Source: Streptomyces sp. NL15-2K
GTDB lineage: Bacteria > Actinomycetota > Actinomycetes > Streptomycetales > Streptomycetaceae
Length of the DNA stretch: 64,000 nt
Assembly (NCBI RefSeq): GCF_030551255.1
Contig: NZ_CP130630.1
Location: 8,741,001-8,805,000 of the forward strand
Reading direction: 5' to 3'
This document shows positions 2,631-21,996 of the stretch, piece after piece. The notes beneath the pieces are model-generated. The model saw only the letters and a list, made by a program, of their open reading frames with translations, ran no database searches and had not been told where the DNA came from. How positions within the stretch are numbered: position 1 is the stretch's first letter; each line of letters opens with the position of its first letter. The translations under genes and the position numbers were made by a program.

Positions 2631-2693
2631 ACCTCACGTGCGTGTTCACGACTCCCACATGAGCTCGTGAACGGGGTGGAAGAATGTGGCGAG

Positions 2694-4394: not shown

Positions 4395-5638
4395 CCGGCC
4401 CCCTCGCCGAGGTCCTCGACGGCCAGCGCCAGGCCGAACTCCAGCGGGCCGCGCGGGCGCTGCTGAAGGAGCCGCTGCTCACCGCCGACGGGCCGTACTC
4501 CGACGAGTTCCGGCTGGTGCGCCGGCACGCCGCCGAGCTGCGGGAGTGGTTCGAGCGCAACGCCGGCTGGGCGCTGCGCACGGACGCCGACGCCGCACGG
4601 CTGCGCAAGACGCCGGGCACCCTCACCGACGCCACACACCCGGCCCGCGAGGCCGCCCGGACCGCCCTGCCCTTCACCCGCCGCCGCTACGTCCTGCTCT
4701 GCCTGACGCTGGCCGCGCTGGAGCGGGGCGAGTCACAGGTGGCACTGGGACGCCTCGCCGAGCAGGTCGTCCTGGCCGCCGCGGATCCTGAACTCGTCGC
4801 TGCCGGGATCACGTTCACCTTGGAGCGGCGCGACGAGCGCCTCGACCTCGCGGCAGTCGTACGCCTGCTGCTGCGGCTCGGTGTGCTGCGGCGGGTGGCC
4901 GGCGACGAGGAGGCGTACGTCAGCGGATCGGGGGACGTGCTGTACGACGTGCGGCGGCGCGTGCTGGCCGGGATGCCCGCGTCCCGGCGGGGCCCCTCCA
5001 TGGTCGAGGCCGAGGACTTCGACGAGCGCCTGGTGGAGATGACGGCGCAGACCGCGCTCGACAGCGACGAGCTCAGGTTCCGCGCGATCCGCTGGCAGCT
5101 GACCCGCCGCCTCCTCGACGACCCGGTGCTCTACTACGACGACCTCACCGACGACGAACTCGCCTACCTCACCCGGCAGCGCGGCTTCATCACCGCGCGG
5201 ATCAACGAACTGACCGGGCTGGTCGCGGAGGTTCGCGCCGAAGGCATCGCCATGGTCGATCCGCTGGACGACCTCACGGACGTACGCATGCCGGAACAGG
5301 GCACGCACGGTCACATCACCCTGCTGCTGGCAGGGCACCTGGCGAGGGCCGCCGGGCCCGTCGAACCGGCGGAACTGGCGGCCCTCGTACGGGAACTGGC
5401 CGTGGAGCACGGCGGTTTCTGGTCCAAGTCGGCGAGGGAGCCGGGAGCGGAGCCCGAACTCGTGGAGCAGGCGCTGACGAAGCTGGTGGCCCTGGGACTC
5501 GCCGAGCGCACGGAACGGGGCGTCGTGCCGCGACCGGCCCTCGCCCGGTTTGCGGTCGGCGAGCCCGTCGTCAGGGATTCAGCGCCGGCCCGCCGTACGG
5601 CCGCACCGGCGGACACGACCGTGAAGGACGAAAGGTGA
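4391..5638 (+). CDS. jetB: Wadjet type III protein JetB (DUF2398, TIGR02678-like)
   Basis: A 415-residue protein with the MukE-like winged-helix role in Wadjet (DUF2398/TIGR02678 family). Recognisable blocks are the N-terminal RAARALLKEPLLTADGPYSDEFRLVRRHAAELREWF and a central RRYVLLCLTLAALERGE helix. In the family it binds the kleisin JetA and stabilises the loop-extruding complex. It starts on the ATGA overlap with jetA and ends on a GTGA overlap with jetC (5635-5638), so all subunits should be made in a fixed ratio from one mRNA. The last 25 residues are Ala/Pro rich. Confidence 0.9.
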   Translation: MTGPLAEVLDGQRQAELQRAARALLKEPLLTADGPYSDEFRLVRRHAAELREWFERNAGWALRTDADAARLRKTPGTLTDATHPAREAARTALPFTRRRYVLLCLTLAALERGESQVALGRLAEQVVLAAADPELVAAGITFTLERRDERLDLAAVVRLLLRLGVLRRVAGDEEAYVSGSGDVLYDVRRRVLAGMPASRRGPSMVEAEDFDERLVEMTAQTALDSDELRFRAIRWQLTRRLLDDPVLYYDDLTDDELAYLTRQRGFITARINELTGLVAEVRAEGIAMVDPLDDLTDVRMPEQGTHGHITLLLAGHLARAAGPVEPAELAALVRELAVEHGGFWSKSAREPGAEPELVEQALTKLVALGLAERTERGVVPRPALARFAVGEPVVRDSAPARRTAAPADTTVKDER

Positions 5639-8600: not shown

Positions 8601-9855
8601 AGCCGTCGCCGCTCTCCAGCGGTTCGCCTCGACGGGGCTGCTCGCCGTCGCCCTGCCCGACGTCGACGTACCGGACGACGACTCAGGGGCATGGGCGGCG
8701 ACCCCCGCCGTCGCTCTCGCCCGCGCCGTCGAGTCCCGGCTCACCGCGGTCGACGACTCGGACGCGGCCTGGGAGCGCGTCCAGAAACGGCTGAGCGAGG
8801 AGTTCGGCAGGCTCCAGGACGCGCTGTCGCGGCACGGCCACACCGCCACCGCCCGTCCGAGCGAGGACGGCATGCGGGTCGACATCGTCTACCAGGGCCG
8901 CGAACGGGCCGTGCCCGAACTCGCCGAGGCACTGGCCGTCGAGGTCGCCGAACTGACCCGCATCCTGTCCGCACGCGAGCGGGAGATCCTTCAGACCCAC
9001 CTCATCACCGAGGTCGCCGGGACACTCCAGGAACTGATCGGAGCCGCCGAACGACAGGTGAACGCGATGAACAGGGAACTGGAGGAGCGCCCGACCTCCA
9101 CGGGAATGAAGCTGCGTCTGGTGTGGCGGGCGTCCCGCCGGGCCCCGCAGGGACTGGCCCAGGCACGTGAGCGACTGCGCCAGTCCGCCGACGCGTGGTC
9201 GCCCGAGGACCGGGCCGCGGTCGGCGCGTTCCTCCAGGAGCAGATCGCCCGCCGGCAGGCCGACGACAGCGCGGGCAGCTGGCTGGAGGACCTCACCGCC
9301 GCCCTCGACTACCGGGCCTGGCACGAGTTCGGTGTCGAACGTCACCAGCACGGCAAGTGGGTGCCGGCCACCGGACCCGCCTCCGGCGGTGAACGGGTAC
9401 TGGCCGCGTCCGTGCCCCTGTTCGCCGCCGCCTCCTCCCACTACGCGAGTGCGGGCGGCGCCCACGCCCCGCGCCTGGTCACCCTGGACGAGGCGTTCGC
9501 CGGCGTCGACGACGACTCGCGCGCCAAGTGCCTCGGCCTGCTGCGCGCCTTCGACCTCGACGTCGTCATGACCAGCGAACGCGAATGGGCCTGCTACCCG
9601 CAGGTACCGGGCATCGCCATCGCTCAGCTCTCCCGCGTCGACGACATCGACGCCGTACTGGTGACGCGGTGGGAGTGGGACGGCAGCGACCGGCGACGCG
9701 GCCCGGAGCCCGGAGCACGAGCGGACGCGTCGACGGCGGCTTCCCACGCCGACGGGTCCGGCGAGGCGGCCGACGGGCAGGTGAGTCCCGTCGGCGATCC
9801 GGGGCGGATCATCTTCATCGACAGCCCCGGCGAACAGGAGTCCTTGTGGACATGA
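5635..9855 (+). CDS. jetC: Wadjet type III SMC-like ATPase JetC (TIGR02680-like)
   Basis: A 1406-residue SMC/SbcC-type ATPase, the motor of Wadjet. Walker A is GNNGTGKS at residues 45-52. Long Ala/Arg/Glu-rich coiled-coil arms occupy roughly 245-560 and 740-1010 around a central hinge-like region. The C-terminal head carries the ABC signature SGGER (1250-1254) and Walker B LVTLDEAF (1281-1288, catalytic E1286). ATP-driven head engagement is known in the family to power DNA loop extrusion before plasmid cleavage. The GTG start overlaps the jetB stop, and the gene overlaps jetD at its 3' end. Motifs are intact and length is normal for the family. Confidence 0.94.
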   Translation: MNRAVSALPSPAPGRWRPLRIGLVDLFHYDVEEFWFRDGRLLLRGNNGTGKSKVLALTLPFLLDGDLSARRVEPDGDPGKRMEWNLLLGGEHPHPERLGYTWIEFGRLDDTTGEAHFRTLLCGLKAVAGRGIARHWFAVTDQRIGDGLDLLDATGTALSRDRLAEAVGSHGMVYDTAKTYRRAVDEALFGLGERRYGALVDLLIQLRQPQLSKRPSEAALSRALTEALPPMDQAVVADAAEAFRSLDEEKEELRAARDAEQASSAFLDHYRRYARLASRRRARLPRREHARYEHLQREVIKAQTDRDQAVTDREEARARGAALDERAARLAAQDAALRSGPEMRDARALDQAAADASRTAAERARAEADRRTAAEAHTRALGRLATAEDRLTAAQEALDDIRDRVAESAAAARLDVPRTHGAPDAVLRREAEEATAARRRAVEHVAELVTRAERAEEQRRAARLRADEADEEAVHSGERLAEAEENAAGAGRALVTAVREHLSGCVELRVHGLPGVLDAVQDWVSGLDGPLPARKAAAEAHRTAASHLADRAARLAHHETATAERQRLAAEELTALETGGERGPSAPYTRTPDVRDRSLGAPLWRLVDFRPHVTEADRAGLEAALEASGLLDAWVRPDGSAVAADGHDVLLDPVGLLGGAGLDRALCPAVDHTDVGAAAVGEETVARLLASIGLAGRNGDRPGATSWEAGGHDTWVCADGRFRVGALTGSWAKDSAQYVGEGAREQARRARMGELRTEIDALTAERERLAEESRAVAGRRAVLDAELAAVPGDDDLRHAHARVTAAADAAHRARARQDERAAELALAAERADRAAAELAETAADLNLPSDRTALGAVRQALADHTALLAALWPALRERADAERTVTGEQTETRRAELLVSELAERATQAVRVAAAADEHLMTLRSTVGAAVAELQRRLEETAGAARSCESEKRQAQADFGDADRRASRAEGRIERLAEDVTEATAAREEAVAALQRFASTGLLAVALPDVDVPDDDSGAWAATPAVALARAVESRLTAVDDSDAAWERVQKRLSEEFGRLQDALSRHGHTATARPSEDGMRVDIVYQGRERAVPELAEALAVEVAELTRILSAREREILQTHLITEVAGTLQELIGAAERQVNAMNRELEERPTSTGMKLRLVWRASRRAPQGLAQARERLRQSADAWSPEDRAAVGAFLQEQIARRQADDSAGSWLEDLTAALDYRAWHEFGVERHQHGKWVPATGPASGGERVLAASVPLFAAASSHYASAGGAHAPRLVTLDEAFAGVDDDSRAKCLGLLRAFDLDVVMTSEREWACYPQVPGIAIAQLSRVDDIDAVLVTRWEWDGSDRRRGPEPGARADASTAASHADGSGEAADGQVSPVGDPGRIIFIDSPGEQESLWT

Positions 9856-11207
9856 GTCCCGCGGCGACTCCGTCCGTCCCCAGCGGCGGGCTTCCGGGGG
9901 CCGGACGAGGGACACCGGAGGACGACGCCGTAGTGGATGTGGCGCCGACCGCGCTGCCACCGGTCGCAGACCAGGCCGGCATCGACACCGAGCGTCTTGG
10001 CCGTCTGCTCGGTGATCCCGGCCTCGCCTGGCTCGTGGACCGCGCCCGGCAGCGGATGGCACGCGGGCGGCCGCTCACCGGCTCCGTCATCCTGTCCGGC
10101 CCCGACGAATCCCAGCGCCGGGCCGCCGAGCGTCTGCTGGGACGGGCGCCACGAGCCGGTGGTTCCCTGAGCGTTCGCCTCGACACCGTGGACGCGATCC
10201 TGCGGCGCTCCGGTGTCAGCCGCGACGGACTGGCGGCCGCCGTAGTGGCCCTCACCGGCCCCGTCACACTCCGTTCGGAGGTGCGGGACAGGGAGGAACG
10301 AGCCTGGGAGGAGGCGTACGCCCCGCTCGGCACCCTCGACGCGGAGCTGGCCGACTGGGCCGAGCGGATCCGCGGGGACGGTCTCGTACGACGCCTCGCC
10401 CGCACGCCGGAAGCGGCCGGCCCCTTGGTGGAGGCTGCCGTGCGTGCGCTGCGTGCGCTGCCCGTGTCACCTCCGACGTCGCGAGCGACGTTCGCGGCAC
10501 AGAACCTCTCCGGCGCCCATGCCCTGGACGAAGGGACACCGCTCGCCACTCTCGTCCTGTCCGGGATCCGTTCCCTCACCGGCTTTCCGGACGGTGCCGG
10601 TGCCGCGTGGCGGCGGGAGGCATGGGCTTCGGCGGGTCTGCTCAAGGACGACCTGTCATCGACCGTCCTCACCCTCAACCTGCGCGGTACTCCATCCCTC
10701 GACTGGATGGCCGACGCGGGTGAGCCCGCGGTACTGACGCTCCGCTCCCTCACCCGTCGCACACCGGTTGCCGCCGTCCCGGCCACGGGAACCGTCCACG
10801 TCTGCGAGAACCCGGCCGTGCTGTCCGCCGCCGCCGACGCCTTCGGCCCGAAGTGTCCGCCGCTGGTGTGCCTCCAAGGGCAGCCGTCGGCGGCCGCCCT
10901 CACCCTGCTGCGCGACCTGTCCGCGCAGGGGGCCGTCCTTCTCCACCACGGTGACTTCGACTGGGGCGGGATACGTATCGCCACGGCGCTGAGGCGCAGC
11001 CTCCCTTGGCGACCATGGCGCTACACGGCCGCCCACTACCGGGCAGCGGTGACCAGGGTGGCCGAGGCCCCCGACCTGACGGGCCCGCCCGCCGCGACTC
11101 CGTGGGATCCGGACCTGGCCGTCGCTCTCGCCGAGTGCGGTGTTCGGGTCGAGGAGGAAGCGGTGCTGGACGACTTGCTGGCGGACCTGGGGCCGGGGAC
11201 CCGTTGA
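9846..11207 (+). CDS. jetD: Wadjet type III nuclease subunit JetD (DUF2399, TIGR02679-like)
   Basis: A 453-residue topoisomerase VI A-like nuclease of Wadjet. The C-terminal DUF2399 Toprim-like fold supplies the metal site: E321 in VCENPAVL and D370/D372 in HHGDFDWGGIRIA. The N-terminal half matches the TIGR02679/DUF3323-type region found before it in this family. JetD cuts the DNA once the JetABC motor stalls on a small circle. GTG 9846 was chosen for AGGAG at 9836-9840 (5-base spacing); ATG 9852, which overlaps the jetC stop, is the alternative. It ends 26 bases from the convergent phosphopantetheinyl transferase gene. Confidence 0.92.
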   Translation: MDMSPAATPSVPSGGLPGAGRGTPEDDAVVDVAPTALPPVADQAGIDTERLGRLLGDPGLAWLVDRARQRMARGRPLTGSVILSGPDESQRRAAERLLGRAPRAGGSLSVRLDTVDAILRRSGVSRDGLAAAVVALTGPVTLRSEVRDREERAWEEAYAPLGTLDAELADWAERIRGDGLVRRLARTPEAAGPLVEAAVRALRALPVSPPTSRATFAAQNLSGAHALDEGTPLATLVLSGIRSLTGFPDGAGAAWRREAWASAGLLKDDLSSTVLTLNLRGTPSLDWMADAGEPAVLTLRSLTRRTPVAAVPATGTVHVCENPAVLSAAADAFGPKCPPLVCLQGQPSAAALTLLRDLSAQGAVLLHHGDFDWGGIRIATALRRSLPWRPWRYTAAHYRAAVTRVAEAPDLTGPPAATPWDPDLAVALAECGVRVEEEAVLDDLLADLGPGTR

Positions 11208-11233: not shown

Positions 11234-12019
11234 TTACGCGCGGACAGCGCGGCGAGCCCAAAGCGCGCATGCTCCCGCATACCCTTCCGGCACCGCCACA
11301 TCCCCCAGCGCCCACCCCGGCGGGCCGGTGCCGGGCCTGAGCCCGGTACCCACGTAGTCCCGTGCGAGATCCCGTGAGAGGCCGGTGCCGATCGCCTTGA
11401 GGTACGCCTCCTTGCGCGCCCAAGTACGGGCGAACGCCACAGGCTTGGTGTGATCGGGTTCAGCAGCCAGCTCGGCCGCTTCCTTCCGATGCAGGGAGGA
11501 CGAGAGCTCCGCGACCACCTCAGGCCGGGGAACCTGTTCGATGTCCACGCCCACGGGCACATCGGCGATCCCGATCAACACGACATCGCCACTGCGGGAG
11601 ATCGAGAAGTGGGCGTCTGCGCCGCGAACCGCAGGTTTCCCGTGCGGGGCGCCGCAGGATGGGCACGGTTCTCGAACCAACCGCACCGCGTCGGCGGTGA
11701 CTCCCAGGCGGGCGCCCAGCAGCACCCGTACCGCCACATGCGCAACGACGTAACGCCGGCGGTCCTCGAGCCGACTGAAGGCTGCCGCACGTCGTCGTTC
11801 CGCCGGGTCGAGGACGCGGGGAGCGAGGCGGGCCGCGCGCTCCCCTTGATTCAGTGCGTTGACGAGCCACAGCGAGAGCGTGCTGCCCCAAGGGACCACC
11901 ACGGTGTCAACGTACGACGCCCCACGAGAGCGGTCCAGCCGGAAAGTCTCTGTGACCTCCTCACGAGAAGTTTCCGAATGAGGTGATCTGTCCGCGTCCC
12001 GACGCCGAATCAAGAGCAT
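11234..12019 (-). CDS. 4'-phosphopantetheinyl transferase (Sfp type)
   Basis: A protein of about 261 residues that moves the phosphopantetheine arm of CoA onto a carrier-protein serine. It carries the family motifs VGVDIEQ (Mg-binding D159 and E161) and WARKEAYLKA (K203, E204), plus the N-terminal RRRYVVAHVAVRVLL block that precedes them. The gene is divergent from the synthetase operon beginning at 12046, whose two carrier domains (Ser60 of the first protein, Ser804 of the second) are the obvious substrates; that link is inference from position. The start is uncertain: ATG 12019 has GGGAAGAG upstream, but the conserved region begins about 40 residues later, and the frame is open to 12130. 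Confidence 0.9.
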   Translation of the reverse strand: MLLIRRRDADRSPHSETSREEVTETFRLDRSRGASYVDTVVVPWGSTLSLWLVNALNQGERAARLAPRVLDPAERRRAAAFSRLEDRRRYVVAHVAVRVLLGARLGVTADAVRLVREPCPSCGAPHGKPAVRGADAHFSISRSGDVVLIGIADVPVGVDIEQVPRPEVVAELSSSLHRKEAAELAAEPDHTKPVAFARTWARKEAYLKAIGTGLSRDLARDYVGTGLRPGTGPPGWALGDVAVPEGYAGACALWARRAVRA

Positions 12020-12045
12020 GGGTGGTTCTCTTCCCGGGAGCTGAC

Positions 12046-14721
12046 ATGGTGGACAAGCCGGTGGAAACCCTGCCCTCCGTTCCGGAGGAATCCACAGCCC
12101 TCTTGGACGGGGACGGTGAACCGGCCGCAATGGAGAAGACCCTGGCCGCGGTGCTGGCCGCGGTCGTGCGGACCGAGCACGTGCCGGTCGACGGTCACTT
12201 TTTCAACGAACTGGGTGCTGACTCGTTGGTGATGGCGCACTTCTGCGCGCGGGTCAGGAAGCGCCCCGATCTGCCGTCGGTGTCGATGAAGGACGTCTAT
12301 CGGTACCCGACGATCAGGAGCCTGGCGACAGCGCTCGCGGACGCCCCGCCGCCCGCTCCCCGGGCGGAGTCGGCGGCCGTGGCACCGGGAAGGGAGTCGT
12401 TCCCGGCATCCGCCACGGCCCCGGCATCCGCCACGGCCCCGGCATCCGCCACGGCCCCGGCATCCGCCACGGCCCCGGCATCCGCCACGGCCCCGGCATC
12501 CGCCACGGCCCCGGCATCGGCCCCGGCACCGTCTCCGGTGCCGGCTCAGCGCCCGGCGGGCATGCCGCAGTACGTCCTGTGCGGTGTGCTGCAGTTCCTG
12601 GCCTTTCTCGGGTACGCCTGTCTCATCGCCTTCGGCACCGCCCGGGGCTACGAGTGGATCTCCGCCGGGTCGGGTGTGCTCGACGTGTACCTGCGGTCCG
12701 TCCTGTTCGGCGGTGCGGCCTTCCTGGGGCTGTGTGCCCTTCCCGTCCTCGTGAAGTGGACGCTGGTCGGCCGGTGGAAGCCTCGGCAGATCCGTGTCTG
12801 GAGCCTTGCGTACGTCCGCTTCTGGATCGTCAAGACGCTGGTTCGGTCGGATCCCCTGGTGTTGTTCAGCGGCTCGCCGCTCTACCTGCTCTACCTCAGG
12901 GCACTGGGCGCGAAGGTCGGACGCGGTGCCGTGGTCCTCTCCCGGAGCGCGCCGGTGTGCACCGACCTGCTCACCATCGGCGACGACACGGTCATCCGGA
13001 AGGACTCGTCCTTCGCCTGTTACCGGGCCCACGCCGGACTGATCCAGACGGGACCGGTCACCCTCGGCAGGAATGTGCTGGTCAGCGAGGCCACGGTGCT
13101 CGACATCGACACATCGCTGGGGGACGGGTCCCAGCTCGGCCACGCCTCTTCGCTGCACCGTGGGCAGGCGGTGCCCGCCGGCGAGCACTGGCACGGGTCT
13201 CCGGCACAGCGGACCGACGTCGACTACCGAGTGGTGGGGCCGGCCCGCTGCGGTGCGGTACGCAGGGCCGCACACAGCGTTCTGCAGCTGCTGATCGCAC
13301 TGAGCCTGTACGTGCCGTTCGCGGTCGGCGGCGTGGTCGCCCTGCTCGTCGAGATCCCGCAGCTCAGTACCGCTCTGAAGCCGGGGCCCGCGGTCTTCGC
13401 CGACGGGGCGTTCTACCGCGACACCCTGGTGTTCTCCTTCGTGCTCGTCTTCGGCGCCGTTCCCGCCGGTCTCGTCGTCCTGAGCACCGTTCCCCGCCTG
13501 CTCGGCCTGACCCTCCAGCCGGGCAGGGTCTACTGCCTGTACGGCTTTCACCACGGGGTGCACCGGACGATCGCGCTCCTGACCAACTGGAAGTTCCTCA
13601 AGCGCCTGTTCGGGGACAGTTCCTGCATCGTCCACTACCTGCGGTGGCTCGGATACGACCTTTCCCGGGTCGAGCAGACCGGGTCGAACTTCGGCACGGA
13701 GGTGAAGCACGAGACGCCGTTGCTGAGCTCCGTCGGGCGCGGGACGATGATCGCCGACGGCCTGTCGATCATGAACGCCGACTTCTCCAGTACCGCGTTC
13801 CGCGTGTCCCGGGTGTCGATCGGCCCGCGCAACTTCCTCGGCAACAGGGTCGCTTACCCCACGCGGGGCAGGACCGGCGACAACTGCCTCCTCGCGACGA
13901 AGGTGATGGTGCCCGTCGACGGGGAGGTCCGCGAGGGTGTCGGGCTGCTGGGCTCGCCCAGCTTCGAGATTCCGCGTTCGGTCCTGCGGGACAGCAGGTT
14001 CGACGGGCTCAAGCGCCGTGAGGAGCTGCGGCGCCGCCTTGCCGCCAAGAACAGGCACAACGCCGCCACCATGGGGTGGTACCTGCTGACGCGTTGGATC
14101 TACGTCTTCGCTCTCGCCCTGCTCACCTCAGGAGCCGCGGAGCTGTACGGGCCGCTCGGCGTGTCGGCGATCGCGCTGGCCGACGTCCTTGTCGTGGTGT
14201 TCACCATCGCGTACTTCGTGCTGGTCGAACGCGTCGTCACAGCGTTCCGTCCCTTGGGGCCGCTGTTCTGCTCGATCTACACACCGGACTTCTGGCGGCG
14301 TGAGCGCTACTGGAAGGTGCCGTCGGAGACGTACCTGAAGATCTTCAACGGCACCCCGTTCAAGAACGTGATCTGGCGACTGCTGGGGGTGCGGCTCGGC
14401 CGCATGGTCTTCGACGACGGCTGCTATCTGACGGAACGGGCCATGGCCGCCATCGGGGACGGCTGCACGCTCAACTCGGGGAGCGTCGTCCAGTGCCACT
14501 CGCAGGAGGACGGCGCCTTCAAGTCCGACCGGACCACGATCGGCTCCGGCTGCACGCTCGGTGTCGGCGCTTTCGTCCACTACGGCGTGACGGTGGGCGA
14601 CGATGCGGTGCTTGCCCCTGACTCCTTCCTGATGAAGGGAGAGGTGGTCCCGCAGGGGGCGTGGTGGGGCGGGAATCCGGCGAGGCCGCTCCGCTCGCAG
14701 GGCGAGGAGGAGGGGAGGTAG
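12046..14721 (+). CDS. Carrier-membrane-hexapeptide protein resembling the C-terminal half of epsilon-poly-lysine synthetase
   Basis: An 891-residue protein in the NRPS terminal-domain (TIGR02353-like) family. Residues 25-105 are a peptidyl carrier domain (ELGADSLVM, Ser60). A linker of six ASATAP repeats follows. Then come six membrane segments in pairs (about 175-198/216-241, 412-437/461-488, 684-706/707-731), each pair followed by a soluble domain rich in left-handed beta-helix hexapeptides (for example LGRNVLVSEATVLDIDTSLGDGSQLG and GSGCTLGVGAFVHYGVTVGDDAVL). This T, then three TM-pair/soluble-domain units, is the layout of epsilon-poly-L-lysine synthetase Pls after its adenylation domain, where the soluble domains join monomers. 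ATG 12046 has GGGAG at 12036-12040. It is the first gene of an operon with the adenylation protein 4 bases on. Role as polymerising half is inference. Confidence 0.85.
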   Translation: MVDKPVETLPSVPEESTALLDGDGEPAAMEKTLAAVLAAVVRTEHVPVDGHFFNELGADSLVMAHFCARVRKRPDLPSVSMKDVYRYPTIRSLATALADAPPPAPRAESAAVAPGRESFPASATAPASATAPASATAPASATAPASATAPASATAPASAPAPSPVPAQRPAGMPQYVLCGVLQFLAFLGYACLIAFGTARGYEWISAGSGVLDVYLRSVLFGGAAFLGLCALPVLVKWTLVGRWKPRQIRVWSLAYVRFWIVKTLVRSDPLVLFSGSPLYLLYLRALGAKVGRGAVVLSRSAPVCTDLLTIGDDTVIRKDSSFACYRAHAGLIQTGPVTLGRNVLVSEATVLDIDTSLGDGSQLGHASSLHRGQAVPAGEHWHGSPAQRTDVDYRVVGPARCGAVRRAAHSVLQLLIALSLYVPFAVGGVVALLVEIPQLSTALKPGPAVFADGAFYRDTLVFSFVLVFGAVPAGLVVLSTVPRLLGLTLQPGRVYCLYGFHHGVHRTIALLTNWKFLKRLFGDSSCIVHYLRWLGYDLSRVEQTGSNFGTEVKHETPLLSSVGRGTMIADGLSIMNADFSSTAFRVSRVSIGPRNFLGNRVAYPTRGRTGDNCLLATKVMVPVDGEVREGVGLLGSPSFEIPRSVLRDSRFDGLKRREELRRRLAAKNRHNAATMGWYLLTRWIYVFALALLTSGAAELYGPLGVSAIALADVLVVVFTIAYFVLVERVVTAFRPLGPLFCSIYTPDFWRRERYWKVPSETYLKIFNGTPFKNVIWRLLGVRLGRMVFDDGCYLTERAMAAIGDGCTLNSGSVVQCHSQEDGAFKSDRTTIGSGCTLGVGAFVHYGVTVGDDAVLAPDSFLMKGEVVPQGAWWGGNPARPLRSQGEEEGR
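12406..12513 (+). repeat. 18-bp in-frame tandem repeat, six copies
   Basis: Six consecutive copies of GCATCCGCCACGGCCCCG followed by a degenerate seventh. Each unit encodes ASATAP, forming a flexible Ala/Pro/Thr linker between the carrier domain and the first membrane segment. Copies are identical at the DNA level, so the number probably varies between strains by slippage. Confidence 0.95.
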
Positions 14722-14725
14722 CCCC

Positions 14726-17296
14726 ATGACACCGATGACAACGACTGCCGAGGCCGGCCGGGAGTTCTGGCAGTGCGTGCTCACCGCCGGCGGGGTCACC
14801 ACGGTCCCTCGGTGGACCCTCGACCCGGTGCCCCGCGTCGCCGAGCACGAGGCGACGCTTCCCGAGGATCTGGTGGACGCGTTGAGCCGCCTGGCGGACG
14901 ATCTGGCGGTACCCCTCCGCTCGGTGTTGCTGGCCGCGCACGCCAAGGTGCTCGCCGCTCTGTCCGGGGAGCACGAGGTCACGACCGGTTACGTCGCCGT
15001 GCGGGGCGGCCGGCCGCTGCCCTGCCGACTGACCACAGAACCCCACTCGTGGCGGACGCTGGTGCTCCACACCCACCGGGCCGAGTCGGAACTGCTGCTG
15101 CACATGGACTTCCCGGTCGACGGTCTCAGGCGTGAGCTGGGCCTGCCCGGACCGTCGACCGAGGCCGTGTTCGATCCGACCGGCGACGGAGGCGAGCTCG
15201 CCGGTGATGCCGTACTGCGGCTGGAGATCCCGCGACGCGGCGATCGGCGAACGCTGCGGCTGCGGTACAGGACCGACGCGCTCGACGCGGACAGCGCCGC
15301 GAGGATCATGGGCTACCACCTCACCGCGCTCACGCTGATCGCCGCCGATCCGGACGCCGCGCACGGCCGGCAGAGCCTGCTCTCCGCCGAGGAGCGCCGC
15401 TTCCAGCTCGAAGAACTCGCCGGACCCCGCCGGGAGCTGCCCGACCACCGATTCCACGAACTGTTCGAACAACGCGTCAGGGCGCACCCGGACGCCGTAG
15501 CGGCCGTACGCGGCGACCAGCGGTGGACCTACCGGCAACTCAACGCACGGGCCAACCGGCTGGGGCGGGCCCTGCTGGCGCGGGGGCTCGGCCGCGAAGG
15601 CGTCGTCGCGGTGGTGACCGAGCGGAACCTGGACTGGATGGCCGCCGTCCTCGCGGTCTTCAAGGCCGGCGGGGTGTACCTGCCCGTCGAGCCGCACTTC
15701 CCGGCCGACCGCATCGCGACCATGCTCTCTCGTGCCGGGTGCCGGCTCGTGCTGACCGAGCCGGGCAGCACCACGATGCTCGACCGGGCCCTCGACGCGC
15801 TGCCCGCGGTCCGGGCGCTCTCCGTCGACGCGGCCTACGCGCAGGGCCACCCGGACTCCGACCTCGGCGTCGGCGTCGCACCGGACCAGCTCGCCTACAT
15901 CTACTTCACCTCCGGCTCCACCGGAGAGCCCAAGGGAGCCATGTGCGAGCACGCGGGCATGCTCAACCATCTCCACGCCAAGATCGACGACCTGGGGATC
16001 GGCGAGGGACGAGTGGTCGCCCAGACCGCGCCCCAGTGCTTCGACATCTCGCTGTGGCAGCTGGCCTCCGCGCTCCTGGCCGGCGGGCGGACCCTGCTCG
16101 TGGAACAGGACGCGATCCTGGACGTCCCGCGGTTCGTCGACACGATCGCCCGCGGCGGGGTCGGCGTGCTCCAGGTCGTGCCGTCGTACCTCGACGCCGT
16201 GGTGTCCTACCTGGAGCGGCACCCGCGCGAGCTGCCGGATCTGCGGTGCGTGTCGGTCACCGGCGAGGCGCTGAAGAAGGAGCTCGTGCAGCGCTGGTTC
16301 GCGGCCCGGCCCGGTATCAGGCTGGTCAACGCGTACGGGCTGACCGAGACCTCGGACGACACCAACCACGAGGTGATGGACCGGGTACCGGACACCGAAC
16401 GGATCCCCCTCGGCCGCCCCGTCAACAACGTGCACGTCTACGTCGTCGACGAGCACCTGTCACCGGTGCCGTTCGGCGCCCCCGGCGCGATCGTCTTCTC
16501 CGGGGTCTGCGTCGGCCGCGGCTACGTCAACGACCCCGAGCGCACCCGGCAGGCCTTCATGGCGGATCCGCACCACGCGGGCCGGCGGCTCTACCGGGGC
16601 GGCGACTACGGCCGCTGGGTACCCGGAGGCAAGCTGGAGTTCCTCGGCCGCCGGGACACCCAGGTCAAGATCCGCGGATTCCGCATCGAGATCGGCGAGG
16701 TCGAGAGCGCCCTGCTGCGGGCGCCCGGGGTCCGCGACAGTGCGGTGGTGGCCGTCGAGGGGGCCGGGCAGGGCGGGCGTCTGGTGGCTTTCTACTCCGG
16801 TCAAGGTCCACTGGAGGACGGCATCCTCACCGACTGGCTGGGCCGGTCGCTGCCCGTGTACATGGTCCCCTCGGAGTTCCACTGGCAGGAGAGCCTGCCC
16901 GTGACCGCCAACGGCAAGGTCGACAGGAAGGCGCTGACCGCACTCGCCGCACAGCTTGACGCCGTGCTACCCGACGTCGGATCCGGCGGCACCGAGCCCG
17001 ACACGGTCGAGGAAGACCGCGACGCGCCCCGCACGCCGACCGAGCGTCGGCTGGCCGCCCTGTGGGCCCAGGTGCTCGACGTCCCGGAGTACACGATCCG
17101 CCGACCCGACCACTTCTTCGACCGCGGCGGCACCTCTCTCGCGGCGGTGCGGCTCGCGATCGCCCTGGACCGTGCCGTGGACATCGCGGACATCACGCGC
17201 CACCCCGTCCTGGCCGACCTGGCCCGCATGGTCGACGGCAGGTTCGAGCCGCCGCAGACGGTGCCGCGCTTCGCCGGGCCGCCGGCTTCCTCCTGA
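14726..17296 (+). CDS. Adenylation-carrier protein (NRPS), probable diaminopropionate-activating
   Basis: An 856-residue stand-alone NRPS module. Residues 1-225 resemble the C-terminal half of a condensation domain without an HHxxxDG motif. Residues about 235-745 are an adenylation domain: YFTSGSTGEPKG near 393, the DISLWQ core starting at D440, YRGGDYGRW, and the GKVDRK motif with the catalytic lysine. A carrier domain ends the protein (FDRGGTSL, Ser804). Hand alignment to GrsA gives pocket residues D-I-W-V-S-T-A-D-D-K; the acidic D at position 330 suits a side-chain amine. It activates an amino acid as the aminoacyl-AMP and loads its own and possibly the upstream carrier. SbnA/SbnB downstream point to 2,3-diaminopropionate. 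RBS GGAGGAGGGGAGG sits just before ATG 14726. Confidence 0.9.
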   Translation: MTPMTTTAEAGREFWQCVLTAGGVTTVPRWTLDPVPRVAEHEATLPEDLVDALSRLADDLAVPLRSVLLAAHAKVLAALSGEHEVTTGYVAVRGGRPLPCRLTTEPHSWRTLVLHTHRAESELLLHMDFPVDGLRRELGLPGPSTEAVFDPTGDGGELAGDAVLRLEIPRRGDRRTLRLRYRTDALDADSAARIMGYHLTALTLIAADPDAAHGRQSLLSAEERRFQLEELAGPRRELPDHRFHELFEQRVRAHPDAVAAVRGDQRWTYRQLNARANRLGRALLARGLGREGVVAVVTERNLDWMAAVLAVFKAGGVYLPVEPHFPADRIATMLSRAGCRLVLTEPGSTTMLDRALDALPAVRALSVDAAYAQGHPDSDLGVGVAPDQLAYIYFTSGSTGEPKGAMCEHAGMLNHLHAKIDDLGIGEGRVVAQTAPQCFDISLWQLASALLAGGRTLLVEQDAILDVPRFVDTIARGGVGVLQVVPSYLDAVVSYLERHPRELPDLRCVSVTGEALKKELVQRWFAARPGIRLVNAYGLTETSDDTNHEVMDRVPDTERIPLGRPVNNVHVYVVDEHLSPVPFGAPGAIVFSGVCVGRGYVNDPERTRQAFMADPHHAGRRLYRGGDYGRWVPGGKLEFLGRRDTQVKIRGFRIEIGEVESALLRAPGVRDSAVVAVEGAGQGGRLVAFYSGQGPLEDGILTDWLGRSLPVYMVPSEFHWQESLPVTANGKVDRKALTALAAQLDAVLPDVGSGGTEPDTVEEDRDAPRTPTERRLAALWAQVLDVPEYTIRRPDHFFDRGGTSLAAVRLAIALDRAVDIADITRHPVLADLARMVDGRFEPPQTVPRFAGPPASS

Positions 17297-17318
17297 ACCG
17301 CCACGAAAGGAGACCGAG

Positions 17319-18335
17319 ATGCCGTCCTCGCTCCCCCTGTTCTCAACGAAATCGCTGCTCAGCGTCGACCTGCGGCCCGGCAAACCCCCCATCCTGCGCG
17401 TCGGCTCCACCGGCGATACGGCGAGCTGGGCGGCCGAGCACCGGGACGCGCTGCGCGCCGTCGTCGCCGAGCACGGTGCGGTCCTGGTCCGCGGCCTCGG
17501 GCTGAGCGACCCGGCCGAGACCGAGGCCGTCTTCCGGCGACTGGCCGGCCCTCTGATGACCGAGAGGGAGGCCTTCGCGTCCCGGCGGAGCTACTCCGAC
17601 GGCGTGTACTCCTCGGCGAAGTGGCCGCCGAACCAGCCGATGTGCATGCACCACGAGCTCAGCTACACCCTGGAGTTCCCCGGCCTGATGCTGTTCGCCT
17701 GCCTCAGTGCTCCCGCCGTCGGCGGGGCGACCGCGCTGGCCGACGCACCGACCGTGCTGCACGCGCTGCCCACCGATCTCGTCGAGCGGTTCCTGAGAGA
17801 GGGCTGGCTGCTCACCCGTACCTACAACGAGGAGATCGGGGCGTCCTTGGCCGACGCCTTCGGCAGTGAGGACCGCGGGACGGTCGAGCGCTACTGCCGG
17901 GCGGCCGCGATCGAGTTCGAGTGGCAGCCCGACGGCGGACTGCGGACCTGGCAGCGCCGCAGCGCCGTGGTGCGGCACCCGGTCACCGGCCGGCGCTGCT
18001 GGTTCAACCAGATCGCGTTTCTCAACGAGTGGACGCTGGCCCCCGAAATACGCGAGTACCTGGTGGACGTCTACGGCGCCGACGGGCTGCCGTTCAACAC
18101 CCGCTACGGGGACGGCGCACCGATCGGCGAGGACACCGTGCGACTCCTGAACGACGTCTACCAGTCCCACACCGTGCGCGAGCCGTGGCAGGCCGGCGAC
18201 CTGATGCTCGTCGACAACGTCCGCACCGCCCACAGCAGGGAGCCGTACGAGGGGCCGCGCGAGGTGCTCGTCGCGATGACGGACGCGGTGCGCCTGGCCG
18301 ACTGCTCGCCCACCGTGGAGGTGATCACCGAATGA
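17319..18335 (+). CDS. TauD/TfdA-family Fe(II)/2-oxoglutarate dioxygenase
   Basis: A 338-residue enzyme with the jelly-roll facial triad: H111-x-E113 (in MHHELSYTLEF) and a distal H305 in RTAHSREPYEG, followed by the arginine that would hold 2-oxoglutarate (GPREVL). The HxE form, rather than HxD, is seen in the SyrP-like group that hydroxylates amino acids during non-ribosomal synthesis. Lying between the adenylation gene and sbnB, it probably hydroxylates Dap, either free, carrier-bound or in the polymer; the substrate is inference. RBS AAAGGAG precedes ATG 17319. It overlaps sbnB by ATGA (18332-18335). Confidence 0.88.
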   Translation: MPSSLPLFSTKSLLSVDLRPGKPPILRVGSTGDTASWAAEHRDALRAVVAEHGAVLVRGLGLSDPAETEAVFRRLAGPLMTEREAFASRRSYSDGVYSSAKWPPNQPMCMHHELSYTLEFPGLMLFACLSAPAVGGATALADAPTVLHALPTDLVERFLREGWLLTRTYNEEIGASLADAFGSEDRGTVERYCRAAAIEFEWQPDGGLRTWQRRSAVVRHPVTGRRCWFNQIAFLNEWTLAPEIREYLVDVYGADGLPFNTRYGDGAPIGEDTVRLLNDVYQSHTVREPWQAGDLMLVDNVRTAHSREPYEGPREVLVAMTDAVRLADCSPTVEVITE

Positions 18336-19402
18336 CCATCACCCGTTCCACCGCAGCGGAGTCCGCACCGGCCGGGCCGGTCACCGTGCCGCCGTTCGCG
18401 GTCGTGTCCGGCGGCCAGGTCCAGCAGGCACTGCAGGGGCGCGAGAAGCAGATCGTGGAGTTGGTCGAGGCCACCTACCGGCTGCACGGCGCCGGTGATT
18501 CGGTGAACCCGCCGTCCCGCTTCCTGCGCTTCCCCGACCGCCCGAGGGACCGGATCATCGCCCTGCCCGCCTCGATCGGCGGGGAGGCAGGAGTGGACGG
18601 CCTGAAGTGGATCTCCAGCTTCCCGCAGAACGTGGCGGCCGGAATCCCGAGGGCCTCGGCGGTACTCATCCTCAACGACCGCAACACCGGCTACCCGTTC
18701 GCCTGCATGGAAGCCTCGATCATCAGCGCCACGAGGACGGCCGCGTCGGCCGCGCTGGCGGCGGACCGGCTCAGCCGCGGGCGACCGCGCCCCACGCGTG
18801 TCGGGTTCTTCGGGGCGGGCCTGATCGCCCGCTACATCCACACCTTCCTGACCGGTACCGGCTGGTCGTTCGACGCCATCGGCGTGCACGACGTGTCCGC
18901 CGACAGCGCGGCCGGTTTCCGCTGCTACCTGGAGCAGTCCGGAGCCACCGGCTGGATCGTCGTGCACGACAGCCCCGAGCAGCTGATCCGCGGGAGCGAC
19001 CTGGTGGTCTTCGCCACGGTCGCCGCCCGGCCGCACGTCCGCGATCCGTCGTGGTTCGCACACGGACCGCTCGTGCTGCACGTGTCGCTGCGCGACCTGG
19101 CTCCGGAGATCGTGCTCGCCTCGGACAACATCGTCGACGACGTCGAGCACTGCCTGCGGGCGGACACCTCCGTTCACCTGGCCGAACAACGCACGGGCAA
19201 CTGCGACTTCCTGACGGGGACGCTGGCGGACGTGATGGCCGGGCGCGTGACGCCGTCGCGGGACCGGACGGTGGTGTTCTCGCCCTTCGGTCTCGGGGTG
19301 CTCGACCTGGCAGTCGGCAAGTACGTCTACGACGAGGTGGCCGGCGCCGGAGAGCTGCAGGTCGTCGACGGCTTCTTTCACGAGCTGCGCAGGTACGGAT
19401 GA
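18332..19402 (+). CDS. sbnB: 2,3-diaminopropionate biosynthesis protein SbnB
   Basis: A 356-residue NAD-dependent dehydrogenase of the ornithine cyclodeaminase/mu-crystallin family. It shows the family's substrate block (KWISSFPQN), a Rossmann motif (GFFGAGLIARYIH) and the SLRDLAPEIV segment. SbnB oxidatively splits N-(1-amino-1-carboxy-2-ethyl)-glutamate, made by SbnA, to L-2,3-diaminopropionate plus 2-oxoglutarate. The 2-oxoglutarate released is also the co-substrate of the dioxygenase encoded just upstream, a tidy metabolic fit (inference). It is translationally coupled to that gene by ATGA. The sbnA gene follows after 43 bases. Confidence 0.93.
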   Translation: MTITRSTAAESAPAGPVTVPPFAVVSGGQVQQALQGREKQIVELVEATYRLHGAGDSVNPPSRFLRFPDRPRDRIIALPASIGGEAGVDGLKWISSFPQNVAAGIPRASAVLILNDRNTGYPFACMEASIISATRTAASAALAADRLSRGRPRPTRVGFFGAGLIARYIHTFLTGTGWSFDAIGVHDVSADSAAGFRCYLEQSGATGWIVVHDSPEQLIRGSDLVVFATVAARPHVRDPSWFAHGPLVLHVSLRDLAPEIVLASDNIVDDVEHCLRADTSVHLAEQRTGNCDFLTGTLADVMAGRVTPSRDRTVVFSPFGLGVLDLAVGKYVYDEVAGAGELQVVDGFFHELRRYG

Positions 19403-19445
19403 AGCACATCCGGCCCGGGCCGCTCTTCAATCCGCGGAGGCCATC

Positions 19446-20624
19446 GTGTCAGTCATATCCGCTCCCTACACCTTCAACGAGGAGGATCTCTACGTCGACC
19501 TCCAGTCGATACTGGGGCGCAGGCTCTTCCTGAAGTGCGAGGGCTTCAACTTCGCCGGCTCGATCAAGCTGAAGCCCGCGACCGAGATGGTGGAGGCCGC
19601 CGAGCAGGCGGGGGGCCTGACGCCGGAGTCGGTCCTGGTCGAGTCCTCGTCCGGAAACATGGGCGTGGCACTCAGCACGATCGCGGCGAGCAAGGGTTAC
19701 CAGTTCCTGTGCGTGACGGACTCCCGCTGCAATCTGTCGACCAGGTTGCTGATGGAGGCCCTGGGCGCCCATGTGCACGTCGTCACCGAGCCGAGCACCG
19801 ACGGCGGCCTCCTCCGCGCGCGGATCGACCACGTCCGTAAGCTGTGCGCCCTGGACGACCGGTACGTGTGGCTCAGCCAGTACACCAATCCGGACAACTG
19901 GAAGGCGCACTACCTCCGGACGGCGCCGGCGATAGCCCGTTCGTTCCCGGGACTGGACGTGTTGTTCGTCGGGGCCGGCACCACGGGGACGCTGATGGGC
20001 TGCGCCCGCTACTTCCGACAGTGGCACCGGCCGGTCCGGATCGTCGCGGTGGACAGCGTCGGCTCGGTGACCTTCGGCGGTGCTCCGGGACGCCGGCTGC
20101 TTCCCGGTCTGGGCATGAGCATGTGCCCTCCGCTGCTCGACGAATCCTTCGTCGACGAGGCGGTGCACGTCGAGGAGGCGGACAGCATCCGCGCCTGCCA
20201 CCGCCTGGCCCGACGCGGCTTCCTGTTCGGCGGCTCCACCGGCACCGTGGTCAGCGGCGCGATGGCCTGGCTGGCGCTGCACGACACGCGTGGCCTGACC
20301 GCGGTGGCCATCGCCCCGGACCTCGGCGAGCGTTACCTCGACACCGTCTACCAGGCCAACTGGGTACGGGCCCTCTACGGCGAGGGCGTGTTCGACCCCG
20401 ACGAGCCGGTCGCCGCCGGCTCCCGGGCCGCCCGCCCCGCACCACCGGTGCCCGCGCCGGGCCCCCGGGCGGGCCACCGACGCCAGGAGGACGAAGCCCG
20501 GGCCGGTGACACCACGACCGCGCGCCCGCGCGGGCCGTCACCGGGCTCCTGGACAGCCGAATCCGCCCCGCCGCGGGATGCGGACGGCGGCCGGGCCTCG
20601 GACACTGTGGGGGAGGGCGGGTGA
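19446..20624 (+). CDS. sbnA: 2,3-diaminopropionate biosynthesis protein SbnA
   Basis: A 392-residue PLP enzyme of the cysteine synthase/CBS fold. The Schiff-base lysine is K41 in FAGSIKLKPA; ESSSGNMG binds the substrate carboxylate and GAGTTGTLMG the PLP phosphate. SbnA condenses O-phospho-L-serine with L-glutamate to N-(1-amino-1-carboxy-2-ethyl)-glutamate, which SbnB converts to Dap. GTG 19446 has CGGAGG 5 bases upstream. The last 65 residues or so form a Pro/Ala/Arg-rich tail not expected for the family (usual length about 325). The tail runs into the GTGA overlap with the downstream sigma factor, so it may simply be a read-on extension. Confidence 0.93.
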   Translation: MSVISAPYTFNEEDLYVDLQSILGRRLFLKCEGFNFAGSIKLKPATEMVEAAEQAGGLTPESVLVESSSGNMGVALSTIAASKGYQFLCVTDSRCNLSTRLLMEALGAHVHVVTEPSTDGGLLRARIDHVRKLCALDDRYVWLSQYTNPDNWKAHYLRTAPAIARSFPGLDVLFVGAGTTGTLMGCARYFRQWHRPVRIVAVDSVGSVTFGGAPGRRLLPGLGMSMCPPLLDESFVDEAVHVEEADSIRACHRLARRGFLFGGSTGTVVSGAMAWLALHDTRGLTAVAIAPDLGERYLDTVYQANWVRALYGEGVFDPDEPVAAGSRAARPAPPVPAPGPRAGHRRQEDEARAGDTTTARPRGPSPGSWTAESAPPRDADGGRASDTVGEGG

Positions 20625-21253
20625 ACCCAGCAGGGCGGATCGGGGCAGACACGCAGGCGGGAGAGGGTGTGGCGAAGCGGCAGGCCCCCGGGGCCCGGCA
20701 CATCGGTACATCCGAGACCGACCGACTGCTGGTGTCCGTCGCCGCCGGCAGTCAGGACGCCTTCACCCGGTTGTACGACGCGGCCGCCGGCCCGGTCTAC
20801 GGAATCGCGTGCCGGGTTCTGCAAGACCCCGCGCGTGCCGAGGAAGTCGCCCAGGAGGTCATGCTGGAGGTCTGGCAGAGTGCCCCCCGCTACCGGCCCG
20901 AGAGCGGGCACGCCATGACCTGGATGATGACCATCGCCCACCATCGCGCCGTGGACAGCGTCCGCACCGCGCAGAGGTCCGCCGAACGTGAGCGCGCCGT
21001 CTCCCAGCACGAGTCGACTCCCGCCTTCGACGACGTCGTGGAGACGGTGGAGACGCTCGGGGAACGCGAACAAGTCCGCTCCTGCCTGAAAGAGCTCAGC
21101 GCCGAGCTGCGGCAGCCGGTAGTGCTCGCTTACTACCGCGGCCTGACCCATACCGAGATCGCTTCGGTGCTGTCCCTGCCGCTCGGCACCGTCAAGAGCC
21201 GCCTGCGCAGAGCACTGACCCGCCTGCGGCATTGCCTGGGAGCTCCGCCGTGA
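20621..21253 (+). CDS. ECF sigma factor, SigK type
   Basis: A 210-residue extracytoplasmic-function sigma factor. Region 2 is DAFTRLYDAAAGPVYGIACRVLQDPARAEEVAQEVMLEVWQSA with the MTWMMTIAHHRAVD helix after it; region 4 is LSAELRQPVVLAYYRGLTHTEIASVLSLPLGTVKSRLRRAL. The resemblance is to mycobacterial SigK/SigL. It would recruit RNA polymerase when freed from the RskA-like anti-sigma factor encoded next. The first GTG (20621) overlaps the sbnA stop, giving possible coupling to the Dap operon; a later start nearer RHIGTSETDRLL is possible. Confidence 0.92.
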   Translation: MNPAGRIGADTQAGEGVAKRQAPGARHIGTSETDRLLVSVAAGSQDAFTRLYDAAAGPVYGIACRVLQDPARAEEVAQEVMLEVWQSAPRYRPESGHAMTWMMTIAHHRAVDSVRTAQRSAERERAVSQHESTPAFDDVVETVETLGEREQVRSCLKELSAELRQPVVLAYYRGLTHTEIASVLSLPLGTVKSRLRRALTRLRHCLGAPP

Positions 21254-21996
21254 CCACAGCCGACCCACACGACCTCGCCGGCGCCTATGCGGCGGACGCC
21301 CTCTCCCGGGAGGAGTGGGTGGCGTTCCGGCGACACGTCGCCGCCTGCCCCGACTGCGCCCACGAGACCGCCCGCCAGCAGGAGGCCGCGGCCTGGCTCG
21401 CCCTCGCGGCAGCCCGCACCCCGCCGCCGCGGCTGAAAGAACGTGTCCTCGCCGAGGTGGCCCGGTCTCCCCAGTACCCGCTGACGCTCCCCGGTCAGGC
21501 GGATGTGCGCCGCGGCCGGCGATCCGCGTCGCGTCTGGTGCGTCTCGCGCTGGCCGCGAGTCTGACCGCGGCCGCCGCGCTCGGCGGCCTGGCGGCCTGG
21601 CAGCACCAGGAGGTGAGGGAGACACGCCAGGAAGCCGAGAGCCACGCCGCCGACCTCGCTCGGCTCCTCGAGGCCCCCGACACCACCTTCGTCAAGAAAG
21701 GCATGGCCTACGGCGGCTCGGGCACCGTCGTGGTCTCACGCCACCTGAACCAGGCCGCCTACTTCTGCCAGGACCTCGCTCCCCTGCCCTCCGACAGGAC
21801 CTACCAGTTGTGGTACGCCGCCCCCGGGGGCGAAGTCCGTCCCGCCGGGCTCCTCCCCGCCAAAGCCGGCCTCCAGGCCGTGTCCCTTCCCCCGCCCGGT
21901 ACCGCCGCCTCACTTGCCATCACCGTCGAACCGAGCGCGGGCTCCGCCAAGCCCACCACCGAACCCCTCACCACATGGCCCCTCCCCGCTTCCTGA
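21250..21996 (+). CDS. rskA: Anti-sigma-K factor RskA family
   Basis: A 248-residue membrane anti-sigma factor. The cytoplasmic N-terminus carries the zinc anti-sigma motif (RRHVAACPDCAHE), a single transmembrane helix lies around residues 98-120 (RLALAASLTAAAALGGLAAW), and the extracytoplasmic RskA domain follows (YQLWYAAPGGEVRPAGLL). It should sequester the sigma factor encoded upstream until released by regulated proteolysis. GTG 21250 overlaps the sigma stop (GTGA), a common arrangement that fixes their ratio. Confidence 0.93.
   Translation: MTTADPHDLAGAYAADALSREEWVAFRRHVAACPDCAHETARQQEAAAWLALAAARTPPPRLKERVLAEVARSPQYPLTLPGQADVRRGRRSASRLVRLALAASLTAAAALGGLAAWQHQEVRETRQEAESHAADLARLLEAPDTTFVKKGMAYGGSGTVVVSRHLNQAAYFCQDLAPLPSDRTYQLWYAAPGGEVRPAGLLPAKAGLQAVSLPPPGTAASLAITVEPSAGSAKPTTEPLTTWPLPAS

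Follow-up and report, generated by a model that had tools for sequence, protein, structure and literature searches.

The membrane synthetases of the Pls/PosA family make epsilon-poly-L-lysine, delta-poly-L-ornithine and gamma-poly-diaminobutyrate (poly-Dab), and combine in one chain an adenylation (A) domain, a carrier (T) domain and three units of a transmembrane (TM) pair and a soluble domain (C1 to C3). In Streptomyces albulus PD-1, the synthetase of poly-diaminopropionate (PDAP; EXU85975) is likewise encoded by a single 4,338-bp gene with the order A-T-C, and njxA and njxB are not close to it (PMC4668381); the sections of that paper on which we draw mention no oxygenase. Here, we analyse a 64,000-nucleotide stretch of the 12.4 Mb genome (G000) of Streptomyces sp. 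NL15-2K (assembly GCF_030551255.1, contig NZ_CP130630.1, positions 8,741,001 to 8,805,000; hereafter the window). It holds a five-gene cassette in which a Pls-type membrane protein without an A domain, T-C1C2C3, stands next to a separate A-T protein, an oxygenase and two genes for the synthesis of diaminopropionate (Dap).

Two further systems resemble parts of this cassette. The dapdiamide genes ddaA to ddaD of Pantoea agglomerans place SbnA, SbnB, a TauD-type oxygenase with an HxE...H motif and an A-T protein side by side, as in the window, whereas a membrane polymerase is absent from dapdiamide synthesis, which relies on ligases of the ATP-grasp type (ddaF, ddaG). In capreomycin synthesis, the Dap-activating domain CmnA-A1 loads the carrier of the A-less protein CmnI in trans (PMC12400406). 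Likened here by description and not by sequence comparison, this system differs in its classical condensation domains and its non-polymer product.

We propose, with a probability of about 0.5, that the cassette makes a Dap-derived, probably polycationic isopeptide polymer. SbnA and SbnB would produce L-Dap. The A domain of the A-T protein (A2) would adenylate Dap and load both its own T domain and, in trans, that of the membrane protein, while the DdaC-like oxygenase would oxidise Dap on the A2 carrier. T-C1C2C3 would then link the residues by the Pls mechanism, with a carrier-bound aminoacyl donor and a side-chain amine as acceptor, and export the chain through the membrane. Such a system could have arisen when a fused poly-Dab-type synthetase lost its A domain and acquired, along with the oxygenase and the genes for Dap synthesis, an A-T didomain of unrelated origin.

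Layout and recurrence of the cassette

The cassette consists of the following features.

12046 to 14721, + strand: T-C1C2C3, a carrier domain and the Pls/PosA membrane polymerase region, without an A domain of its own (TIGR02353, 750.8 bits; PF00550; TM pairs)
12133 to 12369, + strand: T domain of the membrane protein, serine in LGADSL (PF00550; alignment of 67 sequences)
12754 to 13287, + strand: soluble domain C1 (hydropathy, hhalign)
13483 to 14070, + strand: soluble domain C2 (hydropathy, hhalign)
14227 to 14718, + strand: soluble domain C3, with bacterial hexapeptide repeats (PF00132; hydropathy, hhalign)
14726 to 17296, + strand: C*-A2-T, a truncated condensation remnant, A domain and carrier domain (domain profile matches)
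15464 to 16918, + strand: A domain A2, pocket code DIWQSTADDK (TIGR01733; code by motif anchoring)
17048 to 17233, + strand: T domain of the A2 protein, serine in GGTSL (PF00550)
17319 to 18335, + strand: TauD/DdaC-like Fe(II)/2-oxoglutarate oxygenase (PF02668, 160 bits; 32% identity to DdaC; own ribosome-binding site 5' of the ATG at 17319)
18332 to 19402, + strand: SbnB, second enzyme of L-Dap synthesis (TIGR03944 over cut-off)
19446 to 20624, + strand: SbnA, first enzyme of L-Dap synthesis (TIGR03945 over cut-off)

The membrane protein (annotated start 11983) shows a PP-binding match (4e-7) followed by TIGR02353 over its full length (profile positions 1-695, cut-off 423.1), and thus carries the C-terminal three-unit region that defines the Pls/PosA family. 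Family-averaged hydropathy places a TM pair ahead of each soluble stretch (residues 177-195/218-236 before C1 at 237-414, 415-433/461-479 before C2 at 480-675, and 676-694/709-727 before C3 at 728-891); a seventh and weakest peak (271-289) falls within C1. The three soluble domains resemble one another, with hhalign E-values of 1.5e-21 for C1-C3 (probability 99), 5e-6 for C1-C2 (probability 86) and 9e-5 for C2-C3 (probability 59). A Pfam search of 11983-14721 gave no AMP-binding match, so that the chain has no A domain, in contrast to the known Pls/PosA enzymes. Proteins as short as this one fall outside the protein network of the PosA paper, for which sequences of 1100-1800 residues were taken (PMC10522769). 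Two to four tandem T domains were counted in the membrane proteins of twelve related loci (L055, L057, L058, L064, L067, L071, L074, L077, L078, L087, L102 and L106).

The A-T protein contains an A domain (TIGR01733, 389 bits, cut-off 317), a PP-binding domain and an N-terminal condensation-domain remnant of 22.3 bits, below Pfam's 30.6. In none of the 69 A2-T loci did the 300 residues preceding the A domain contain an HHxxxDG motif, and a complete condensation domain ahead of A2 was therefore rejected. Since this tail lacks the catalytic motif, C1-C3 are the sole candidate in the operon for bond formation. SbnB (415.5 bits, curated cut-off 326.9) and SbnA (375 bits, cut-off 350) make a supply of Dap by the operon itself nearly certain. 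A cysteine-synthase-like and an ornithine-cyclodeaminase-like enzyme, the pair NjxA and NjxB, also provide Dap in PD-1, which shares the suggested monomer and the C-terminal architecture with the window; unlike PD-1 with its single synthetase gene, the window encodes T-C and A-T separately and has sbnB and sbnA in the operon.

An earlier note, made from the letters of this stretch, had described a Pls-type membrane half as a separate protein, an A-T protein with a second carrier domain, Dap synthesis in the same operon, a divergent phosphopantetheinyl transferase, and an oxygenase that sets the operon apart from the single-protein PDAP synthetase of PD-1. All of these parts were recovered where the note had placed them, including the dedicated TauD gene. 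It had also named soluble domains without similarity to Pls as an outcome that would count against the idea; the whole region matches TIGR02353.

The note had further proposed a search for the same gene order elsewhere, and the same gene set indeed recurs in many soil bacteria. Taking one genome per species and keeping the best 80 of 84 relatives, we obtained 77 loci, 58 of them with 5 kb on either side of the Pls match. Of these 58, 45 loci, all from other genomes, also held A2 at an identity of at least 55%. In these 45, chosen for holding both, the Pls region was always within 2 kb of A2 and SbnA within 7 kb; TauD was found up to 4 kb and SbnB up to 6 kb from A2 in 43 loci each, the exceptions being L056 and L078. 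This linkage exceeds chance. The SbnA match was weak (34-42% identity) in four Acidobacteriota loci (L068, L070, L079, L091) and may there be a looser cysteine-synthase relative. The other 13 of the 58 loci had no A2 nearby (L060, L074, L084, L088, L090, L094, L095, L097, L099, L101, L103, L106, L110). No sixth gene was common to most loci.

Most relatives among the named genomes are Streptomyces, the nearest being S. flaveus with 93% identity in the Pls region. All five genes occur together in Actinomycetota, in the four Acidobacteriota loci named above and in one alphaproteobacterial bin (L102), the latter two groups being metagenome-assembled genomes; partial sets lie on fragments from Rokubacteria, Gemmatimonadota, Chloroflexota and one Ignavibacteria bin. 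Among 295 sampled Streptomyces genomes, 125 had a C*-A-T match at E 1e-120 or better, the weakest of which (42-49% identity) are probably other domains of non-ribosomal peptide synthetases (NRPS). TIGR02353 matches, fused and stand-alone combined, were present in 172 of the 295, and in 14 of 296 over the phylum. The genome of NL15-2K itself has three TIGR02353 regions over the cut-off, namely the one in the window, another split cassette (L112) and a fused protein (L001/L114) with the pocket code DAESIGTVVK. The second code residue separates Pls, PosA and the PDAP and poly-Dab (PDAB) synthetases as alanine, methionine and phenylalanine, respectively (PMC10522769), and from its alanine L001/L114 would be expected to act on lysine. 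In this genome, three SbnA genes pass the cut-off, each within an A2 cassette. Two plasmid-borne variants were seen elsewhere: Pls-type proteins with TauD directly behind them on large Pseudonocardia plasmids (L165, L166), and an orphan T-C1C2C3 gene on a large Streptomyces plasmid (L167).

Could the membrane protein instead transfer one or a few, perhaps oxidised, Dap units to a membrane or wall component, yielding a small conjugate or decoration? C3 is hexapeptide-acyltransferase-like, C1-C3 have been described as related to acetyltransferases (PMC8117764), several loci contain HGSNAT_cat/DUF418 membrane acyltransferase-like genes and 18 of the 69 A2 proteins include a thioesterase. However, the match to the Pls/PosA family is full-length, the members that have been studied (Pls, PosA and the PDAP synthetase) make homopolymers, and we regard such a transfer as rather improbable. 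The acyltransferase-like genes near the cassette fall into two clusters, an HGSNAT_cat/DUF418 cluster (matches in the members scanned) in actinobacterial loci (L042, L064, L071, L096, L110) and a DUF418 cluster in acidobacterial and gemmatimonad bins (L079, L108, L085, L075).

Origin of the A-less membrane protein and of A2

To place the split proteins, a tree of 82 Pls C-terminal regions was rooted on the lysine-type enzymes. It comprised 74 of 98 open frames, the window and seven outgroup rows; the 24 open frames left out were fragments, frameshifted, duplicates or near duplicates. One derived branch of 65 rows holds 61 of the 63 stand-alone proteins and all four vestigial ones, in which a decayed A domain is still fused to T-C1C2C3 (L042, L057, L074, L086). 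In these four, the A10 motif with its lysine is lost and A3 is broken; AMP-binding_C was absent from the three scanned with Pfam, and L086 was judged from its translation. Eight fused proteins whose A domain (A1) was classed as intact fall outside the branch, one of them (L080) cut at a contig end and seen in part.

The neighbouring genes follow the same division. Split proteins adjoin SbnAB, and six of the eight intact fused relatives adjoin a diaminobutyrate transaminase (two by NCBIfam name, four by membership in the same similarity cluster). A dat gene also accompanies pldA, the gene for the gamma-poly-L-Dab synthetase (PMC8117764). Taken together, the tree position, the vestigial A domains and the transaminase neighbours point to a poly-Dab-type ancestor that lost its A domain, and monomer supply seems to have switched from Dab to Dap along with this loss.

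A2 is of separate origin from the Pls A domain. It is 26-36% identical to Pls-type A domains, from which all 15 A2 sequences separate as a single group (support 100/99) in a 33-member A-domain tree; forcing A2 together with all Pls-type A domains costs 66 log units (approximately unbiased test, p-AU 2.3e-5). Pocket codes differ as well, with DFECLSVVTK in five of the fused relatives. The A domain expected to activate the monomer in this operon is hence not one of the Pls lineage. That a single Pls gene was simply split in two, the layout the earlier note had in mind, is rejected by the A-domain tree, the different pocket code and the vestigial fused A domains: A2 is not the missing Pls domain, and four relatives keep the decayed original. 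It seems that an A-T didomain of other ancestry took over activation as the old A domain was lost.

Probable substrate, carrier loading and oxidation

Pocket codes were read by motif anchoring, in what we take to be GrsA numbering, from 105 A2 domains (96 after removal of 9 duplicates). DIWQSTADDK was found in 84 of the 96; the remaining 12 comprise 7 with one or two changes, 2 that are cut and 3 frameshifted pieces. Residues W239 and D331 presumably correspond to those of serine codes, and D330 is additional. The sister A domain of A2 (L174, DIWELTADDK) also lies next to an SbnA-like gene. From this neighbour, the linkage of A2 to SbnA and the pocket residues, Dap is very likely the substrate of A2.

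The membrane protein would then depend on A2 for its monomer, and the distribution of A2 among 12 genomes searched for it agrees with this. Six of the 12 had an A-less or vestigial protein with no A2 within the locus retrieved; five of these contained one elsewhere (59-69% identity), in one case (L060) only a partial A2 at a contig start. In none of the six genomes with an intact fused A domain was there an A2 above 44% identity. With CmnA-A1 and CmnI as a described case, loading of the membrane protein's T domain by A2 in trans appears quite likely.

DdaC, a protein of 329 residues, oxidises carrier-bound acyl-Dap in dapdiamide synthesis, so that DdaC and DdaD offer a precedent (PMC12451424). 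The window TauD is 32% identical to DdaC over 314 positions and shares its iron and 2-oxoglutarate ligands. Among TauD matches above 250 bits, the counterparts of H104, E106, H298 and R307 are kept in all 71, 71, 70 and 70 copies covering them, and that of Q224 in 70 of 71; the substrate-contact positions T93 and E94 are variable. With the first four kept in every copy covering them, a fossil gene was rejected, and a halogenase was rejected because the HxE pair is retained. TauD follows A2 in all six A2 loci without a nearby Pls region, and in L113 A2, T and TauD share one open frame, which runs from T into TauD without a stop or a clear ribosome-binding site. L046 was not counted as such a fusion, since a ribosome-binding site and ATG precede TauD within its single frame. 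These two observations make the A2 carrier the most likely site of action of TauD, and oxidation of Dap bound there is probable.

The cassette could alternatively make plain poly-Dap, either beta-poly-Dap or a branched, comb-like polymer, with the oxygenase acting on the finished chain, the chain end or another molecule. Two carriers, one per protein, would fit a dipeptide unit, and some membrane proteins have two to four T domains; three Pseudonocardia loci (L074, L165, L166) have the oxygenase directly behind the membrane protein with no adjoining A2. A branched Dap polymer is mentioned in PMC9606270 and PMC10522769, the sections drawn on here naming no synthetase for it. We nevertheless consider plain poly-Dap unlikely, because the association of the oxygenase with A2 where the membrane protein is absent, including the one fusion, indicates that it tracks the A2 carrier and not the polymer.

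A third alternative is a small soluble compound resembling dapdiamide or a siderophore, which the membrane protein would either export or have no part in. SbnA, SbnB, TauD and A-T are the first four genes of the dapdiamide cluster, and A2 cassettes also occur in loci without the membrane protein that resemble polyketide synthase (PKS) or NRPS loci (L113, L127-L131). The eight operon proteins scanned, however, included no ATP-grasp ligase of the DdaG/DdaF type, no siderophore synthetase of the NIS type that stands beside sbnA/sbnB for staphyloferrin B-type siderophores, and no complete condensation domain; a genome-wide search for the ligases and NIS synthetases was not made. Together with the constant proximity of the membrane protein to A2 and the lack of a shared sixth gene, this makes a small product quite improbable, and a polymer is what we would expect with reasonable confidence. 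On plasmid P4 of Pantoea agglomerans DAPP-PG734 (L164), which is typed as conjugative, the dapdiamide genes are annotated as sbnA, sbnB, TauD, NRPS, hydrolase, ddaF and ddaG, and the cluster lies between insertion sequences.

Several points weigh against an oxidised Dap polymer and the origin proposed for its synthetase. The branch of split proteins has moderate support (an SH-aLRT of 90, short of the usual 95), weak support affects 19 of the 79 inner branches of the Pls tree, and two stand-alone proteins (L083, cut at a contig end, and L087) lie outside the branch. DdaD has a pocket code, DSEDIGVINK, that differs from that of A2, and is 33% identical to it. The thioesterase-like segment of the 18 A2 proteins noted above stands directly behind T (Pfam-confirmed in L049), which would be unexpected in a pure polymerase. 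The membrane protein is missing from the A2 cassettes of 6 of the 19 loci examined in the genus, which were chosen for variety and are not a random sample, so that A2 and TauD alone do not imply a polymer. A2 cassettes evidently serve other pathways: L113 and L127 have a common gene layout, L113 with neighbours like those of a type II PKS, L128 lies with NRPS genes, and L129 with an ATP-grasp ligase and a lyase. In the genome of L097, an A-less protein is present and no A2 was found, the locus itself being damaged; each A2 in the five genomes mentioned above adjoins its own Pls-type gene or a contig end, and the orphan A-less proteins might be dead or decaying copies. Finally, the substrate of DdaC is acylated Dap, but no acylating enzyme was seen in the operon. 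Oxidation of free Dap at either carbon would yield an unstable hemiaminal.

The single-frame gene of L113 belongs to the same genome as the window (G000:C1:8187500-8207000). It is accompanied by SbnB, SbnA, a phosphoglycerate-dehydrogenase-like protein and a thioesterase, and adjoins ketosynthase, dehydratase and ketoreductase genes, which suggests an acyl-Dap of type II PKS origin as its product.

Flanking genes and significance

The cassette is flanked by two further sets of genes.

11234 to 12019, - strand: 4'-phosphopantetheinyl transferase (PF01648, 58 bits; start at 12019, or at 11902 by coding score)
20669 to 21996, + strand: extracytoplasmic function (ECF) sigma factor (SigK-type) and RskA-like anti-sigma factor, possible regulators (profile matches; neighbourhood in relatives)

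The phosphopantetheinyl transferase gene is divergent from the T-C1C2C3 gene, and its product could in principle activate both carrier domains. A match was found in 16 fetched loci, none of them among the closest relatives examined (L035-L038, L046, L093). In these same six relatives the SigK/RskA pair is retained next to the cassette, 3' of which it lies in the window, and by neighbour-gene clustering the RskA cluster was seen in them and the window only; the pair is possibly a dedicated regulator. The cassette is immediately preceded by a complete Wadjet defence operon at 2667-11207 (JetA, JetB, JetC and JetD; PADLOC models).

We know of no oxidatively tailored poly-Dap. Our literature search found no paper on a Pls protein without an A domain alongside an oxygenase and a separate A-T protein for Dap; as it largely missed subscription journals, the result is no proof of absence. 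We tentatively suggest, with some doubt, an undescribed branch of cationic poly-amino-acid synthesis: oxidation of the monomer on the carrier of a free A-T protein would come first, and an A-less membrane synthetase would then build oxidatively tailored poly-Dap from it. Such a branch would extend over Actinomycetota and, judged from metagenome-assembled genomes, Acidobacteriota and Alphaproteobacteria.

If this is true, the cassette would represent a monomer swap in a poly-amino-acid synthetase, in which a free-standing activating domain, with its precursor pathway and a tailoring enzyme, replaces the decaying built-in one. A C1-C3 polymerase that can be addressed in trans would allow a direct test of the substrates it accepts, and would give a simple experimental handle on a long-open question, namely how the condensation-domain-free Pls region forms amide bonds. 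It would also point to a cationic product that is common in Streptomyces and other soil bacteria.

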